Shown here piece after piece: positions 584 through 63,375 of a stretch of 64,000 nt of DNA. Position numbers and translations under genes: made by a program. Numbering within the stretch: the first letter of the stretch is position 1; every line of letters begins with the position of its first letter. The notes below the pieces were generated by a model. The model searched no databases. It had not been told where the DNA came from and saw nothing but the letters and a program-made list of their open reading frames with translations. Source of the stretch: an archaeon GW2011_AR20 (lineage in GTDB: Archaea; Nanobdellota; Nanobdellia; SCGC-AAA011-G17; GW2011-AR20); assembly GCA_000830315.1 (NCBI GenBank), contig CP010426.1, positions 261,156 through 325,155 of the forward strand, read 5' to 3'.

Positions 584-2869
584 ATGAAAGACCCAAAAGA
601 TGTTAAACTAAAAGTAATGGAAGCATTGCAGGAAGAAGCTTACAAAGGAATTGTAAGAATTGATTCAGAGACAATGCATTTAATTGGAGTTCATCCAGGA
701 GATGTTGTCCAGATTACAGGCGGAAGAGAAACAGTTGCTATTGTAGATCGGGCTTATCCTACAGATGTTGGACAAAATGTTATAAGAATGGATGGAATAA
801 TGAGAAGAAATGCAAAAACTTCTATAGGCGAATTTATTACAGTCAAGAAAGCAGAAGTAAAAGAAGCTAAAGATGTTGTCATAGCACCCGCGCAAAAAGG
901 AGTTATGGTAAAAGCAGATCCCAGGATTTTCAAGAAGGCTTTACTAGGAAGGGCAGTTGTTAAAGGAGATATTGTTGCACCCGGCGGAACAAGAACAAGG
1001 CACAGGACAATGTCTGAATCCCCATTTTTTGAAGAAGTATTCAGCATGTTTGAAGAAAGTTTTACAGCAGGTTTCGGACTGGCTGGATTAAGATTTATAA
1101 TTGCAAATACAAATCCAAAAACACCTGTAATAATTACAGAAAATACTGAATTAACATTAAATCCCAAGGCAGTCGAGGTTTCAGAGGAGAAAGTCCCAGA
1201 AGTTACTTATGAAGACATCGGCGGATTAAAGGAAGAGATATCAAAGATAAGAGAAATGGTCGAGTTGCCATTGAAACATCCGAATTTATTTTCTAAATTA
1301 GGAATTGAGCCTCCTAAGGGGGTTTTATTACACGGGCCGCCAGGAACAGGAAAAACTTTATTGGCTAAGGCAGTTGCAAATGAAAGTGAAGCTAACTTTA
1401 TTTTAGTCAATGGGCCAGAGATTATGAATAAATTTTACGGCGAATCCGAAAAACGCATCAGAGATATATTTGAAGAAGCTGAGAAAAACGCACCAAGCAT
1501 AATTTTTATTGATGAAATAGATGCAATTGCTCCAAAAAGAGACGAAAGTTATGGAGAATTAGAAAGAAGACTTGTTTCCCAATTGTTAACTATGATGGAT
1601 GGCTTAAAGGGAAGAGGAAAGGTTGTTGTTATTGGTGCTACTAACAGGCCAAATGCAGTTGACCCCGCCTTAAGACGCCCAGGAAGATTTGACAGGGAAA
1701 TATCAATTGGCGTTCCAAATAAATTAGGAAGGTTAAATATTTTAAAAATACATACAAGAAATATGCCCTTGGCAAAGGATGTTAATTTAAATAGATTAGC
1801 TGAGATTACCCATGGATTTGTTGGAGCAGATGTTGCTGCATTATCAAGAGAAGCTGCAATGAGTGTTTTAAGAAGGATTTTGCCAGAGATTAAATTAGGA
1901 GAAAAAGAAGATATTCCAGATGAGATATTGCAAAAATTGACAGTAACTGATTTGGATTTTAGGGAAGCTTTGAAATTAGTAAGGCCAAGTGCTATGAGGG
2001 AAGTTTTAATAGAAACACCAAACATACACTGGGAAGACATCGGCGGATTAGAACAGGTTAAACAGGAATTAAAAGAAGCTGTAGAATGGCCGTTAAAACA
2101 TCAGGATTCATTTAAAAGATTGGGAATTAAGCCTCCAAAAGGATTATTATTATATGGGCCGCCAGGAACAGGAAAAACTTTATTGGCTAAGGCAGTTGCA
2201 AATGAAAGTGAAGCTAACTTTATTTTAGTCAATGGGCCAGAATTATTAAACAAATGGGTTGGAGAAAGTTCAAGGGGAATAAGAAAGATATTTGAAAAAG
2301 CAAGGCAGGCATCCCCATGCATTATTTTCTTTGATGAGATTGATTCGATAGCTGCAAGACGCGGTACAGAATATGGAAATAAAACAATTGACCAAATGGT
2401 TAATACATTATTGGCTGAAATAGACGGGTTGCAGGAATTAAACGATGTTGTTGTAGTTGCCGCAACAAATAGGCCAGATATTATTGATCCGGGGTTATTA
2501 AGGCCTGGGAGATTTGACAGATTAGTTCTAATACCCCCCCCAAACAAGCAGGCAAGACTTGATATTTTGAATATTCACACGAAAAACATGCCTTTGGCGA
2601 AAGATGTTAATCTAGGAGAGATAGCCAAAGCAACAGAAGGTTTTGTCGGAGCAGATCTTGAGTCAGTATGCAGGGAAGCTGGATTGCTTGCTTTAAGAGA
2701 AGACATGAAAGTTAAGGAAGTTGGCAAAAAACATTTCGAAACTGCAATTAAAAAAGTTAATCCGAGTGTTTCGCCTGATTTGATGGACAAATACAAAGAA
2801 TTAGAGGAAAATTATCTTAGAAATGCCAGGGCAGGCTTGACGAAGGAAGTCCCGAATTATTTTGGCTAA
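584..2869 (+). CDS. cdc48: Cdc48/VCP-type AAA+ ATPase
   Basis: 761 residues, the usual length for archaeal Cdc48 (VAT). The N domain (about 1-185, double-psi barrel type) is followed by two AAA modules. D1 has Walker A GPPGTGKT at about 251-258 and Walker B IIFIDEID. D2 has Walker A at about 525-532 and Walker B IIFFDEID. Both carry the second region of homology ending in RRPGRFDR or LRPGRFDR with arginine fingers. The enzyme is a hexameric unfoldase that extracts and feeds proteins to the proteasome. An 86-bp stretch of D1 and D2 is identical in DNA sequence, which suggests recent gene conversion. Confidence 0.97.
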   Translation: MKDPKDVKLKVMEALQEEAYKGIVRIDSETMHLIGVHPGDVVQITGGRETVAIVDRAYPTDVGQNVIRMDGIMRRNAKTSIGEFITVKKAEVKEAKDVVIAPAQKGVMVKADPRIFKKALLGRAVVKGDIVAPGGTRTRHRTMSESPFFEEVFSMFEESFTAGFGLAGLRFIIANTNPKTPVIITENTELTLNPKAVEVSEEKVPEVTYEDIGGLKEEISKIREMVELPLKHPNLFSKLGIEPPKGVLLHGPPGTGKTLLAKAVANESEANFILVNGPEIMNKFYGESEKRIRDIFEEAEKNAPSIIFIDEIDAIAPKRDESYGELERRLVSQLLTMMDGLKGRGKVVVIGATNRPNAVDPALRRPGRFDREISIGVPNKLGRLNILKIHTRNMPLAKDVNLNRLAEITHGFVGADVAALSREAAMSVLRRILPEIKLGEKEDIPDEILQKLTVTDLDFREALKLVRPSAMREVLIETPNIHWEDIGGLEQVKQELKEAVEWPLKHQDSFKRLGIKPPKGLLLYGPPGTGKTLLAKAVANESEANFILVNGPELLNKWVGESSRGIRKIFEKARQASPCIIFFDEIDSIAARRGTEYGNKTIDQMVNTLLAEIDGLQELNDVVVVAATNRPDIIDPGLLRPGRFDRLVLIPPPNKQARLDILNIHTKNMPLAKDVNLGEIAKATEGFVGADLESVCREAGLLALREDMKVKEVGKKHFETAIKKVNPSVSPDLMDKYKELEENYLRNARAGLTKEVPNYFG
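1334..1419 (+). repeat. 86-bp identical repeat, copy in Cdc48 D1
   Basis: Covers Walker A and following residues of D1. It is base-for-base identical to 2156-2241, including silent positions. The flanks diverge at once: c versus t before, g versus a after. Confidence 0.95.
2156..2241 (+). repeat. 86-bp identical repeat, copy in Cdc48 D2
   Basis: Second copy of the 1334-1419 sequence, 822 bp downstream in the D2 module of the same gene. Identity at silent sites points to intragenic conversion rather than protein-level constraint alone. Confidence 0.95.
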
Positions 2870-33646: not shown

Positions 33647-33778
33647 GCCTCTCTAGCTCAGCCTGGTAGAGCACACATAGAAAATATGGCTCAGATGGCT
33701 GTTAACTAAACAGGATGGAGACCATGCGGTCATTTTCGTCAAGAAAACCGTAGGCAGGTTCAAATCCTGCGGGAGGCG
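33647..33778 (+). tRNA. tRNA-Asn(GTT) with three introns
   Basis: Acceptor GCCTCTC pairs with GGGAGGC, discriminator G; D stem GCTC/GAGC; T stem GCAGG/CCTGC. Removing 33675-33694 (20 nt, between 27 and 28), 33705-33720 (16 nt, 37/38) and 33732-33753 (22 nt, 48/49) leaves a 74-nt tRNA with stem CATGG/CCATG, loop CTGTTAA and variable loop CGGTC. Each junction is a bulge-helix-bulge cut after the second bulge base. The helices are GAGC/GCTC, CTGT/ATGG and GCGG/CCGT. The outer introns fold as CATA/TATG and TTTTC/GAAAA hairpins. Confidence 0.93.
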
Positions 33779-33896: not shown

Positions 33897-34595
33897 ATGA
33901 AATTTGACTTATCTAAATTACAACCTAACAACGAAATTGTGTTACCAGAAAAATCTAGTGAAGAATTGGCTGAAGAAACTGGGTTGCATATTGGAGATGG
34001 TACTATGAACTTTTATAAAAATCAGAATAAAATTAAAGGAAGTTATGCTTTAAGGGGCCATATATTAGATGATAAAGAACATTATAACAAAATCATAAAA
34101 CAACTTTATTTTAAGTTGTATAATTTGAAGGTTAGCTTAAGGGATATGCCAAAAGATGGAGTTTATGGGTTTCAAAAATGGTCCAATTCCTTAGTAAATT
34201 TTAAGCATAATATTCTGGGTTTAACATTAGGTAAGAAAATTGATATAAAGATACCAGAAATTTTTATAGAGAAAGAGGAATTTATCTCAAGCACAATCAG
34301 AGGTATTTTTGATACAGATGGTACGATTTATTTAGAACCAAAATATGGAAAATTTTATCCAAGAATAGAAATTGCAACAATATCAGAAAATTTAGGTTAT
34401 CAGTTAAATAATTTAATAAGGAAAATTGGATTAAGATCTACAATTTATTTAGAATTAGTGAAAAATCCTGGGTGGAATGATAAATATCATATAAATGTTC
34501 GTGGAGAGGAAATGCTAAATAAATGGATGCAAATCATCAATCCTCATAATCCTAAACACATTAAAAAATTTGAATTCTATATTAATAATTCTTAG
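33897..34595 (+). CDS. Free-standing LAGLIDADG homing endonuclease
   Basis: 232 residues. Two LAGLIDADG-type helices, LAEETGLHIGDGTM (about 23-36) and STIRGIFDTDGTIYL (about 132-146), each carry the catalytic acidic residue. So this is a single-chain double-motif enzyme. It cuts a long asymmetric site to promote its own spread. It lies alone between two triple-intron tRNA genes, not inside an intron or intein. It has a TATTTAAATAA box at about 33860-33870. Its cleavage site is unknown; neighbouring tRNA genes are candidates. Confidence 0.88.
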   Translation: MKFDLSKLQPNNEIVLPEKSSEELAEETGLHIGDGTMNFYKNQNKIKGSYALRGHILDDKEHYNKIIKQLYFKLYNLKVSLRDMPKDGVYGFQKWSNSLVNFKHNILGLTLGKKIDIKIPEIFIEKEEFISSTIRGIFDTDGTIYLEPKYGKFYPRIEIATISENLGYQLNNLIRKIGLRSTIYLELVKNPGWNDKYHINVRGEEMLNKWMQIINPHNPKHIKKFEFYINNS

Positions 34596-34632
34596 AAATG
34601 TTTATAAATTAAGTAAAATGACTTTCTTTTAG

Positions 34633-34753
34633 GGGGCTGTAGCTTAGCCTGGCTGGAGCACTCGACAATTAGGGTGAAACTGATAGCTAAGGTTAGAGAT
34701 CGAGAGATAAAAAAACTTACTCGAAGTCGGAAGTTCAAATCTTCCCAGCCCCA
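34633..34753 (+). tRNA. tRNA-Ile(GAT) with three introns
   Basis: Acceptor GGGGCTG/CAGCCCC, discriminator A; D stem GCTT/GAGC; T stem GGAAG/CTTCC. Introns are 34665-34678 (14 nt, 30/31), 34686-34698 (13 nt, 37/38) and 34707-34725 (19 nt, 45/46). Splicing gives a 75-nt tRNA with stem CTCGA/TCGAG, loop CTGATAA and the standard variable loop AGGTC. Junction helices are CACT/GGTG, CTGA/TTAG and CGAG/CTCG, each with the 3-base bulges cut after base two. Confidence 0.93.
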
Positions 34754-38420: not shown

Positions 38421-39749
38421 TTATTCTCCAAATTTTCTATTTCTTTCTAAAATATTATTTTTAGCTAATCTTAAATTCTTTACCTTTTTAGGATGTTTTA
38501 AATAAGGTTCTATTTTTAAGAGAAATTCGTAGAGAAAACTTTTTTTATTTAATCTTAAGAACCAACAATCTTTATTACTATAATAAGTTTTATCACCCTC
38601 AATTCTCGGTGTACCTTTTTCTGAACCCAAATACATCTTTGGACACTCTATTCCAATATTTATGAGTTTATTTCTAATATAATTTAAATATTTTTTATTT
38701 TGATTAACAACACTATAATACGCCATACCTTTACTAATGCCTATTGTTCCTTCGGCATCCGTAAAACCAGCTAAAAAAGCAAAGAAATTTTCCTTATCTT
38801 TAAGAAGATCTTCAGGAATTTTTTTGCTTAATAAAAATTCAAATGTTCTATTAAGATAGCATTCCATTTGCACTTTGCCTTTCTTATTTGGCTTACTAAT
38901 CCAAACTTGACCATAATCTTTAAACAAATTCTTTATTAGTTCTATTTGTTCTTTTATAGTGCTTCCACAATCAACATGAATTGTTTCACTATTTTCCCAA
39001 ATTTTTCTTACTCTTAAATCCCCTAATCTAAATCCAATAAGATAAGCTTTTTCTCTTAAATTTCCGCTAAAATCATTCTTTTGATAAATCATATGGGCAA
39101 TTGCCCTATTCCTTATCATTCCATATTCTCTTAATTTTCTATGCACCGTGCTTCTACTGTAACCATACCTTTTCTCTATTTCCCATGTTGATAATCTTTT
39201 ATTTAGATAATATTTTTCTAAAAATTCTTTAGAAGGAATTTTTGAATTTAACTCATGCGTGTTTCTTCTTTCAATATTGTATTGTTTTAATCTTTTCCAA
39301 ATAGTTGCTTGACAAGTACCATAAATATCAGCAATTTCATAGGTGTTTAACTTGTTTATTAAATATAATTTTTCTAACTCTTCTTTACTTATTTCTATTT
39401 TTTTACAATTAGAAAACCTATTAGTAATTTTATATTTTCTAAGTCTATTTAAGATAGTTGATATTTTACAATCATATTTTTTAGCTATTTTTCTTAATTT
39501 AAATTTTTTATTTATAGATAAATCATAAAGTTCACTTTTATCTATAAAAATTTCCGGTTTATTTACAAATAACCTCATAGATTGTGATTGATTCCTTATT
39601 CTTATATTATATTTTCTTAACCAATAAGCGATTGTATTTAAGGAGCATTTATATCTTGATTTTATCTCAGATAATGGCTGTTTTCTTTTTATATAAAGTT
39701 CTCTTAAAATCTCTTTTGGAATATGTATTTTGATTTTCCCACCTTTCAA
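38421..39749 (-). CDS. LAGLIDADG endonuclease with four HTH repeats
   Basis: 442 residues from a TTG at 39749 (no ATG fits until well inside). Residues about 8-215 hold four tandem helix-turn-helix units of about 45 residues, each built like LSEIKSRYKCSLNTIAYWLR, LRKIAKKYDCKISTILNRLR, TYEIADIYGTCQATIWKRLK and TWEIEKRYGYSRSTVHRKLR. The C-terminal part carries AYLIGFRLGDLRV and FFAFLAGFTDAEGTIGI, the two LAGLIDADG helices. The HTH array should lengthen the recognised DNA. It follows a small RHH gene by two bases and precedes metG. Confidence 0.85.
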   Translation of the reverse strand: MKGGKIKIHIPKEILRELYIKRKQPLSEIKSRYKCSLNTIAYWLRKYNIRIRNQSQSMRLFVNKPEIFIDKSELYDLSINKKFKLRKIAKKYDCKISTILNRLRKYKITNRFSNCKKIEISKEELEKLYLINKLNTYEIADIYGTCQATIWKRLKQYNIERRNTHELNSKIPSKEFLEKYYLNKRLSTWEIEKRYGYSRSTVHRKLREYGMIRNRAIAHMIYQKNDFSGNLREKAYLIGFRLGDLRVRKIWENSETIHVDCGSTIKEQIELIKNLFKDYGQVWISKPNKKGKVQMECYLNRTFEFLLSKKIPEDLLKDKENFFAFLAGFTDAEGTIGISKGMAYYSVVNQNKKYLNYIRNKLINIGIECPKMYLGSEKGTPRIEGDKTYYSNKDCWFLRLNKKSFLYEFLLKIEPYLKHPKKVKNLRLAKNNILERNRKFGE

Positions 39750-39971: not shown

Positions 39972-40057
39972 GCAGTAATAGTACAATGGTTCGTACTGGA
40001 GCTTCCCAATAACAAAGGAAAGAGCTTCGGATCCGGGTTCGATTCCCGGTTACTGCA
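39972..40057 (+). tRNA. tRNA-Gly(CCC) with one intron
   Basis: Acceptor GCAGTAA/TTACTGC, discriminator A; D stem GTAC/GTAC; anticodon stem GGAGC/GCTTC; loop TTCCCA plus A; T stem CCGGG/CCCGG; four-base variable loop GGAT. The 14-nt intron 40009-40022 sits at 37/38. Its bulge-helix-bulge has the perfect helix TTCC/GGAA. Confidence 0.9.
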
Positions 40058-40060
40058 TAA

Positions 40061-40148
40061 AGCCCTGTGGTCCAGTAGGTCAAAGACGGCAGGCTCTGGT
40101 TTATTAAAGAGAAACCTGCAAACGGAAGTTCGAATCTTCCCGGGGCTA
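40061..40148 (+). tRNA. tRNA-Gln(CTG) with one intron
   Basis: Acceptor AGCCCTG/CGGGGCT, discriminator A; anticodon stem GCAGG/CCTGC; loop CTCTGG plus A; T stem GGAAG/CTTCC. The 14-nt intron 40100-40113 at 37/38 uses the perfect helix CTCT/AGAG. It starts three bases after tRNA-Gly, so the two are one transcript. Confidence 0.9.
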
Positions 40149-63161: not shown

Positions 63162-63251
63162 TTAAGCTTTAAAATTTTACTTCTTTTTTATTTTTACCTA
63201 GCTTTTCACCGATAGGTGTTTAAAAGTTAAGGTCACAAGTTTATCTATAGT

Positions 63252-63272
63252 GTGTTAATCAAAAATTAACAC
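63252..63272 (+). other. Hairpin upstream of the template repeat
   Basis: GTGTTAAT, loop CAAAA, ATTAACAC: a perfect 8-bp stem about 100 bases before the template repeat. It is not followed by a T-run, so a structural element of the template RNA is as likely as a terminator. The rest of 63162-63375 shows no gene; a smaller CACC-GATA-GGTG hairpin is at 63207-63218. No accessory avd-like gene is present there. Confidence 0.45.
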
Positions 63273-63375
63273 CATGAAATTCAACATTTTTAGTTAGTAA
63301 CTATAAAAGATCCTTGGGAAAGTCTTTCGTGAATACTAGAAATGTGGTGCTTATTAGTAGATAAGCTATACCGAA

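Follow-up and report, generated by a model that had tools for sequence, protein, structure and literature searches.

Archaeal tRNA genes carry introns in about 15% of cases, with lengths of 11-129 nt, according to the accessible text of PMC4090602, and positions 30/31 and 45/46 are among the listed sites (PMC4090602, PMC8450103). The accessible parts of three papers give three as the maximum number of introns per archaeal tRNA (PMC8450103, PMC4033280, PMC3293823). P. calidifontis is credited with 71 introns in 46 tRNA genes (PMC8450103), and in the Asgard Atabeyarchaeia and Freyarchaeia more than half of the tRNA genes are described as having multiple introns (PMC11291895). PMC4090602 describes the way in which archaeal tRNA introns spread as unknown; transposition among tRNAs is reported for Thermoproteales (PMC4090602, PMC4033280). 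The alpha4-type splicing endonuclease is described as having narrow or strict specificity (PMC6379350, PMC4033280), and relaxed introns as being removed efficiently only by (alpha-beta)2 and epsilon2 enzymes in the available portion of a review (PMC6379350).

In the window, by which we mean the whole 64,000-nt stretch of DNA analysed here, we detected a tRNA-Ile(GAT) gene with three introns downstream of a three-intron tRNA-Asn(GTT) gene (Table 1). We are confident that it is a functional, probably essential gene, whose transcript would carry three independent BHB-type introns.

Table 1. Features of the tRNA-Asn and tRNA-Ile locus, in window coordinates
Feature	Position	Strand	Evidence
tRNA-Asn(GTT), introns of 20, 16 and 22 nt at 27/28, 37/38 and 48/49	33647..33778	+	Decoder; reassembly placed in window
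LAGLIDADG protein, freestanding, 232 aa, between tRNA-Asn and tRNA-Ile	33897..34595	+	PF14528, 41 bits
TATA-box-like element TTTATAAAT	34601..34609	+	~28 nt upstream of tRNA-Ile; read from sequence
tRNA-Ile(GAT) gene, three introns	34633..34753	+	Rfam RF00005, 42.0 bits; decoder; exact reassembly
tRNA-Ile exon 1 (tRNA positions 1-30)	34633..34664	+	
tRNA-Ile intron 1, 14 nt, at 30/31	34665..34678	+	4/4 central pairs, 34659-34662 with 34673-34676
tRNA-Ile exon 2 (positions 31-37)	34679..34685	+	Anticodon GAT at 34682-34684
tRNA-Ile intron 2, 13 nt, at canonical site 37/38	34686..34698	+	4/4 pairs, 5-bp outer helix
tRNA-Ile exon 3 (positions 38-45)	34699..34706	+	
tRNA-Ile intron 3, 19 nt, at 45/46	34707..34725	+	4/4 Watson-Crick pairs
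tRNA-Ile exon 4 (positions 46-73)	34726..34753	+	

The Rfam tRNA model matches the entire interval above its gathering threshold of 29 bits. We parsed the gene with a decoder that combines a full cloverleaf with inserts, in which four bases near the 3' end of an insert pair with the exon bases two before the junction. The top parse is tRNA-Ile(GAT) with the inserts ACAATTAGGGTGAA (30/31), GCTAAGGTTAGAG (37/38) and ATAAAAAAACTTACTCGAA (45/46). Removing them leaves a 75-nt cloverleaf with all stems and invariant bases restored, and exons and introns reassembled give the window sequence with every letter identical. The segment from positions 26 to 48 of the spliced tRNA, ACTCGACTGATAATCGAGAGGTC, is uninterrupted in the loci of six relatives (L086, L087, L095 = L054, L096, L144 and L149), which fixes the intron boundaries to about one base without recourse to the splicing rule. 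The preliminary description had placed the gene and its three introns exactly so. ARAGORN in its bacterial setting reported three tRNAs in the window and missed both tRNA-Ile(GAT) and tRNA-Asn, a failure on multi-intron tRNAs that matters for annotation. Elsewhere in the window, an RT-16 RNA (RF03019) match lies at 63197-63374 (+, 75 bits); a second is in locus L092 (1789-1925, -, 102 bits).

Each of the three junctions has a 4-bp central helix of the BHB type, two 3-nt bulges and cuts two bases in, so the cut rule invoked earlier for this gene holds throughout. With the boundaries held as given, a central helix as good was obtained in 1.9%, 2.3% and 0.02% of 20,000 shuffles per intron for introns 1, 2 and 3 (0.0192, 0.0232 and 0.0002). 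The flanking helices are uneven: outer 2 bp and inner 1 bp at intron 1, outer 5 bp and inner 1-2 bp at intron 2, and outer 0 bp and inner 3 bp at intron 3. From this predicted pairing, introns 1 and 3 are relaxed BHB introns, because the inner helix of the former is short and the latter lacks an exon-side outer helix. The spliced RNA has a cloverleaf-like predicted fold (z -3.28). In the unconstrained minimum-energy fold predicted for the unspliced precursor, introns 1 and 3 show their central helices in the dot-bracket reading, and intron 2 pairs with the D-arm without forming its own motif, so that a splicing order or a chaperone may be needed.

Covariation could be followed at the tRNA-Asn 30/31 introns of 12 genomes, where four different exon-side central-helix sequences occur and the intron side follows them in 47 of 48 pairs. 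Re-dealing the introns gave 41.1 pairs, and none of 3000 re-dealings reached 47; since these parses required at least 3/4 pairs, the total is biased upward, the re-dealing control less so. This covariation points to selection on central-helix pairing in this order. The test covers Asn 30/31 alone, the exon partner bases of the three tRNA-Ile introns being invariant between genomes.

As read from the sequence, splicing would proceed as follows. The TATA-like element TTTATAAAT lies about 28 nt upstream of tRNA-Ile, and the gene is therefore probably transcribed from its own promoter. At each junction of the transcript, a four-base stretch close to the intron's 3' end would base-pair with four exon bases, leaving three-base bulges. 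The tRNA-splicing endonuclease (EndA) would cut within both bulges, and a ligase would then join the exons into a standard 75-nt tRNA-Ile, presumably active in decoding.

Surveying the other tRNA genes, as the preliminary description had suggested, we found introns in 29 of the 43 genes of this genome (28 parsed, one by length), and 14 are intron-free. The 28 parsed genes hold 37 assigned introns, 18 of them at sites other than 37/38: 30/31 (five), 27/28, 19/20 and 59/60 (two each), and 15/16, 20/21, 22/23, 29/30, 45/46, 48/49 and 53/54 (one each). Among the parsed genes, only tRNA-Ile and tRNA-Asn have three introns. A lineage-wide burst, raised earlier as one explanation for the two neighbouring genes, fits this load and the intron-rich tRNA-Asn and tRNA-Ile genes across the order. 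The 13-nt intron had been called exceptionally short, a view that the lengths do not bear out: the 37 introns span 11-56 nt with a median of 16 nt (four of 11 nt and two of 12 nt), the published range also begins at 11 nt in the accessible text of PMC4090602, and at the Ile 37/38 site itself 12-13 nt is found in six of ten relatives.

These counts depend on successive decoders. The first, with anticodon-arm introns alone, left many tRNA genes unparsed. With the strict decoder, 14 of the 44 places had no parse; one of these (419279), inside protein-like sequence, was dropped as false, and a relaxed decoder permitting 3/4 central pairs resolved most of those remaining. A tRNA-Leu (C1:105227) and a 71-nt tRNA (C1:129977) stayed unparsed and were counted by length as intron-bearing and intron-free, respectively; the Gly-CCC gene (C1:301127) was parsed only by the decoder limited to anticodon-arm introns. 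For some D-loop introns (18/19, 19/20 and 20) the position is uncertain by one or two bases. The best parses of a tRNA-Leu (C1:674305-674400) and a tRNA-Pro (C1:618121-618207) place A at position 34 (AAG and AGG), which is unusual in archaea, and an alternative splice reading of both is possible. A single CAT tRNA (C1:135863) is present among the parsed matches, in which we did not identify both an initiator and an elongator Met tRNA.

Part of the order keeps topoisomerase VI A, tRNA-Asn and tRNA-Ile together as a block; we take this order to be Woesearchaeales-like, since most of the named relatives are MAGs carrying a Nanoarchaeota or Woesearchaeota label. Across our sample of relatives (67 loci and L031, many ending at contig ends), 12 of 37 tRNA-Asn genes are intron-free and 25 exceed 80 nt; 12 of 27 tRNA-Ile genes are intron-free and 15 are longer. 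Both tRNAs are intron-free in G038 and G034, where they lie 3 and 15 nt apart. At the other extreme, the tRNA-Asn of G021 and G145 carries four introns (15/16, 30/31, 37/38 and 43/44; the 37/38 intron with 3/4 central pairs) and their tRNA-Ile three each. The tRNA-Asn of G009 is similar but less clean, its fourth intron being assigned by homology to G021 with 2/4 central pairs. In G166 (L131 from 1721), the tRNA-Asn shows apparent introns at 9/10, 30/31, 37/38 and 48/49 by eye, and its odd 3' end may hide a fifth. Three tRNA-Ile genes (G089, G160 and G132) and four tRNA-Asn genes (G009, G151, G155 and G156), whose automatic parses have doubtful anticodons or variable loops, were used for length and intron presence alone; for G164 and G168 no parse of tRNA-Asn was obtained and length served for the count, and the tRNA-Asn genes of G142 and G166 were found by eye.

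The tRNA-Ile gene belongs to a known kind of gene, in a lineage (Woesearchaeota) for which titles, abstract openings and the passages cited here yielded no published report of tRNA introns; nor did these mention any archaeal tRNA with four introns. Taken alone, the gene adds the Woesearchaeales to the lineages with multi-intron tRNAs. What makes the case interesting is the mismatch between endonuclease and introns, together with the relatives whose tRNA-Asn has four introns and the nuclease gene that occupies the spacer.

For the splicing endonuclease, whose type the preliminary description had singled out for identification, we found a single short, alpha4-like EndA. One gene of 190 aa encodes it (PF01974 region C1:140604-140864), and no second PF01974 match was found in this genome even at E <= 10. 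Across 41 genomes (our own and 40 relatives) we found exactly one match in 37 and none in four. Within the phylum, 118 of 119 genomes gave a match, 115 of them one and three of them two (G043, G122 and G141), the pair in G043 being perhaps one gene split by a contig end. PF01974 thus detected no distinct structural beta subunit at this sensitivity, which a very divergent or truncated one could escape. The Y-H-K residues, which we take to be catalytic as in M. jannaschii, fall in invariant alignment columns. The closest sequence is the N. equitans catalytic subunit (3iey_A, 2e-37), and the closest fold is the M. jannaschii alpha4 enzyme (1a79, TM 0.70/0.77, 39% identity; model mean pLDDT 80.9). 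All six aligned EndAs (our own and five relatives) contain an acidic segment near the C-terminus (VDEEND, VDDEGD, VDDEND or VDEESD), which we assign from the alignment with M. jannaschii to L10, the negatively charged loop expected to let identical subunits pair in alpha4 enzymes.

The accepted rule links non-canonical introns to endonucleases that are fused or have two subunits, and this order appears to be an exception. Since an alpha4-like EndA is the sole match alongside relaxed introns, either the enzyme accepts more substrates than has been assumed or the search missed a divergent partner. An intron set of which half is non-canonical suggests that an alpha4-type EndA does not cleave canonical BHB motifs only.

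The spacer between the two tRNA genes encodes a freestanding LAGLIDADG protein with two motif-like stretches (GLHIGDG and GIFDTDG), whose gene ends 37 nt before tRNA-Ile. Homologues occupy this spacer in genomes of several families. They directly follow tRNA-Asn in eight genomes (G178, G009, G003, G013, G144, G142, G164 and G155); the tRNA that comes next in G003 is Phe. In G159 a homologue precedes tRNA-Ile, with tRNA-Asn not found there; fragments occur in G167 and G160, and in G027 the homologue lies about 2 kb on. Many genomes have a predicted homing-endonuclease gene between two intron-rich tRNAs. We found no published report tying LAGLIDADG genes to archaeal tRNA introns among titles, abstract openings and the passages cited here.

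One explanation for the introns is collaborative homing, in which the spacer nuclease would cut an intron-free allele of a flanking tRNA gene and repair would copy the introns along with the nuclease gene. Its recurrence in the same spacer accords with such a role, as does the distribution of tRNA-Asn introns, present in all 12 genomes with the LAGLIDADG gene (our own included) and in 16 of 28 without (one-sided Fisher 0.005, kinship ignored); for intact adjacent genes alone the count is nine of nine (Fisher 0.016, kinship likewise ignored). These tallies, like the one for tRNA-Ile introns below, were made by hand and disregard kinship; those for tRNA-Asn cover genomes in which that gene is known. 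Our own genome has another freestanding LAGLIDADG gene immediately 5' of the two-intron tRNA-Ser(GCT). However, tRNA-Ile introns show no association with the LAGLIDADG gene (six of ten with, 10 of 19 without), and no one intron position is common to all carriers. Moreover, the introns might merely shield a carrier from cutting, or tRNA spacers might be safe landing sites. We therefore consider it unlikely that this nuclease, whose cutting is predicted, drives intron mobility in the flanking tRNAs.

Further LAGLIDADG matches were seen. In locus L112 (our own C1:499000-502000), two more freestanding LAGLIDADG-like ORFs, 697-1371 (-) and 1753-2424 (-), lie immediately 5' of tRNA-Ser(GCT), and the nearer one extends into the tRNA gene. 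Divergent from the tRNA pair Gly-CCC/Gln-CTG (39972-40148) is the gene of a 442-aa protein (window 38421-39749, -), which matches several helix-turn-helix models and, weakly, a LAGLIDADG domain. LAGLIDADG_3 matches inside ORFs of 827-1203 aa (C1:206096, 355051, 606237, 650399 and 738195) are probably inteins. In L082, a stretch resembling a tRNA 3' end about 30 nt past the LAGLIDADG gene is possibly an insertion remnant.

The preliminary description had also proposed intron spread between the neighbouring tRNA-Asn and tRNA-Ile genes. Two triple-intron genes stand side by side, 0.9 kb apart, and their 37/38 introns give the weakest hint of likeness (p = 0.055), but none of the nine Asn-Ile comparisons stands out (p 0.055-1.0; 0.14-1.0 for the remaining eight) and the non-canonical sites differ (27/28 and 48/49 in Asn, 30/31 and 45/46 in Ile). 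Some introns are instead similar to those that other genomes carry in the same tRNA at the same position, with p-values uncorrected for the number of comparisons: Asn 27/28 in G003 (p = 0.0008), where the inner stem shows a paired change (CATA/TATG against CATC/GATG), Asn 48/49 in G166 (p = 0.017), Ile 45/46 in G021 (L099; p = 0.023) and Ile 37/38 in G026 (p = 0.035). Most other same-site comparisons with relatives are not significant. On the differing sites and the lack of Asn-Ile likeness we rejected spread between the neighbours, in either direction, as very improbable; same-site inheritance or exchange is favoured. In this order, individual tRNAs would then acquire, retain and lose introns at recurrent sites, and a neighbouring gene would not be the source of the copies. 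Within our own genome, 265 intron pairs were compared and p-values computed for the 25 top-scoring, none of which is significant at 5% after multiplication by 265. The lowest are Ala 59/60 against Ser-GCT 29/30 (p = 0.0003) and Asn 27/28 against Tyr 27/28 (p = 0.0007), and we therefore do not claim transposition among its tRNAs.

Three interruptions in a single gene could also mark a decayed tRNA-Ile whose function another gene supplies, and with the genome about 96% complete a missing Ile(GAT) gene is conceivable. An intact copy elsewhere had been named as the sign of a pseudogene; no second Ile(GAT) was found among the 44 tRNA-model matches (one of them false) of the 829-kb genome, and the locus is therefore probably no pseudogene. 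With the stems and invariant bases restored and the central helix intact at all three junctions, we rejected decay as highly improbable. For the tRNA at C1:595072 the anticodon is uncertain and may read TAT, TGC or TAG, so that Ile(TAT) is possible; by established decoding knowledge, Ile(TAT) would not substitute for GAT.

A tRNA-Phe(GAA) identity, with the middle intron cut at 35/36, is the second-best decoder parse and has 4/4 pairs at every junction, but we rejected it as scarcely credible, given its lower score (72 against 78), the canonical status of 37/38, the separate tRNA-Phe(GAA) gene (C1:351073-351167) and the mostly Ile(GAT) orthologues in the same synteny, although tRNA-Phe comes after tRNA-Asn in G003 and G004.

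Our broader reading is tentative, and we hold it to be possible rather than probable: Woesearchaeales may splice a tRNA intron load that is half non-canonical, with up to four introns in tRNA-Asn, using a homotetrameric-type EndA thought too strict for it, and intron gain may be linked to freestanding LAGLIDADG genes in the spacers.

Among known systems, the multi-intron tRNAs of Thermoproteales, such as tRNA-Pro(UGG) of Pyrobaculum islandicum, likewise combine BHB introns at canonical and non-canonical sites, with at most three per gene as far as the sources quoted above describe them. They belong to a different phylum with an (alpha-beta)2 endonuclease, whereas here one alpha-like gene was seen and nothing clearly indicates that a single intron has been copied into many tRNAs. 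The Asgard Atabeyarchaeia and Freyarchaeia share a very heavy load with many non-canonical introns, in a different lineage and, by the available text of PMC11291895, with introns in 92-95% of genes compared with 29 of 43 here. Nanoarchaeum equitans also has non-canonical introns, and its catalytic subunit is the best sequence match to EndA; it differs in having a second, structural subunit, none being found here with PF01974, and in a two-residue gap where our EndA keeps the acidic segment. Methanocaldococcus jannaschii has, as here, a single EndA gene of similar length (alpha4, 1a79) with an acidic C-terminal segment (here VDEEND), but its enzyme is reported as narrow in specificity in the accessible part of PMC6379350, while the organism studied here carries many non-canonical introns.
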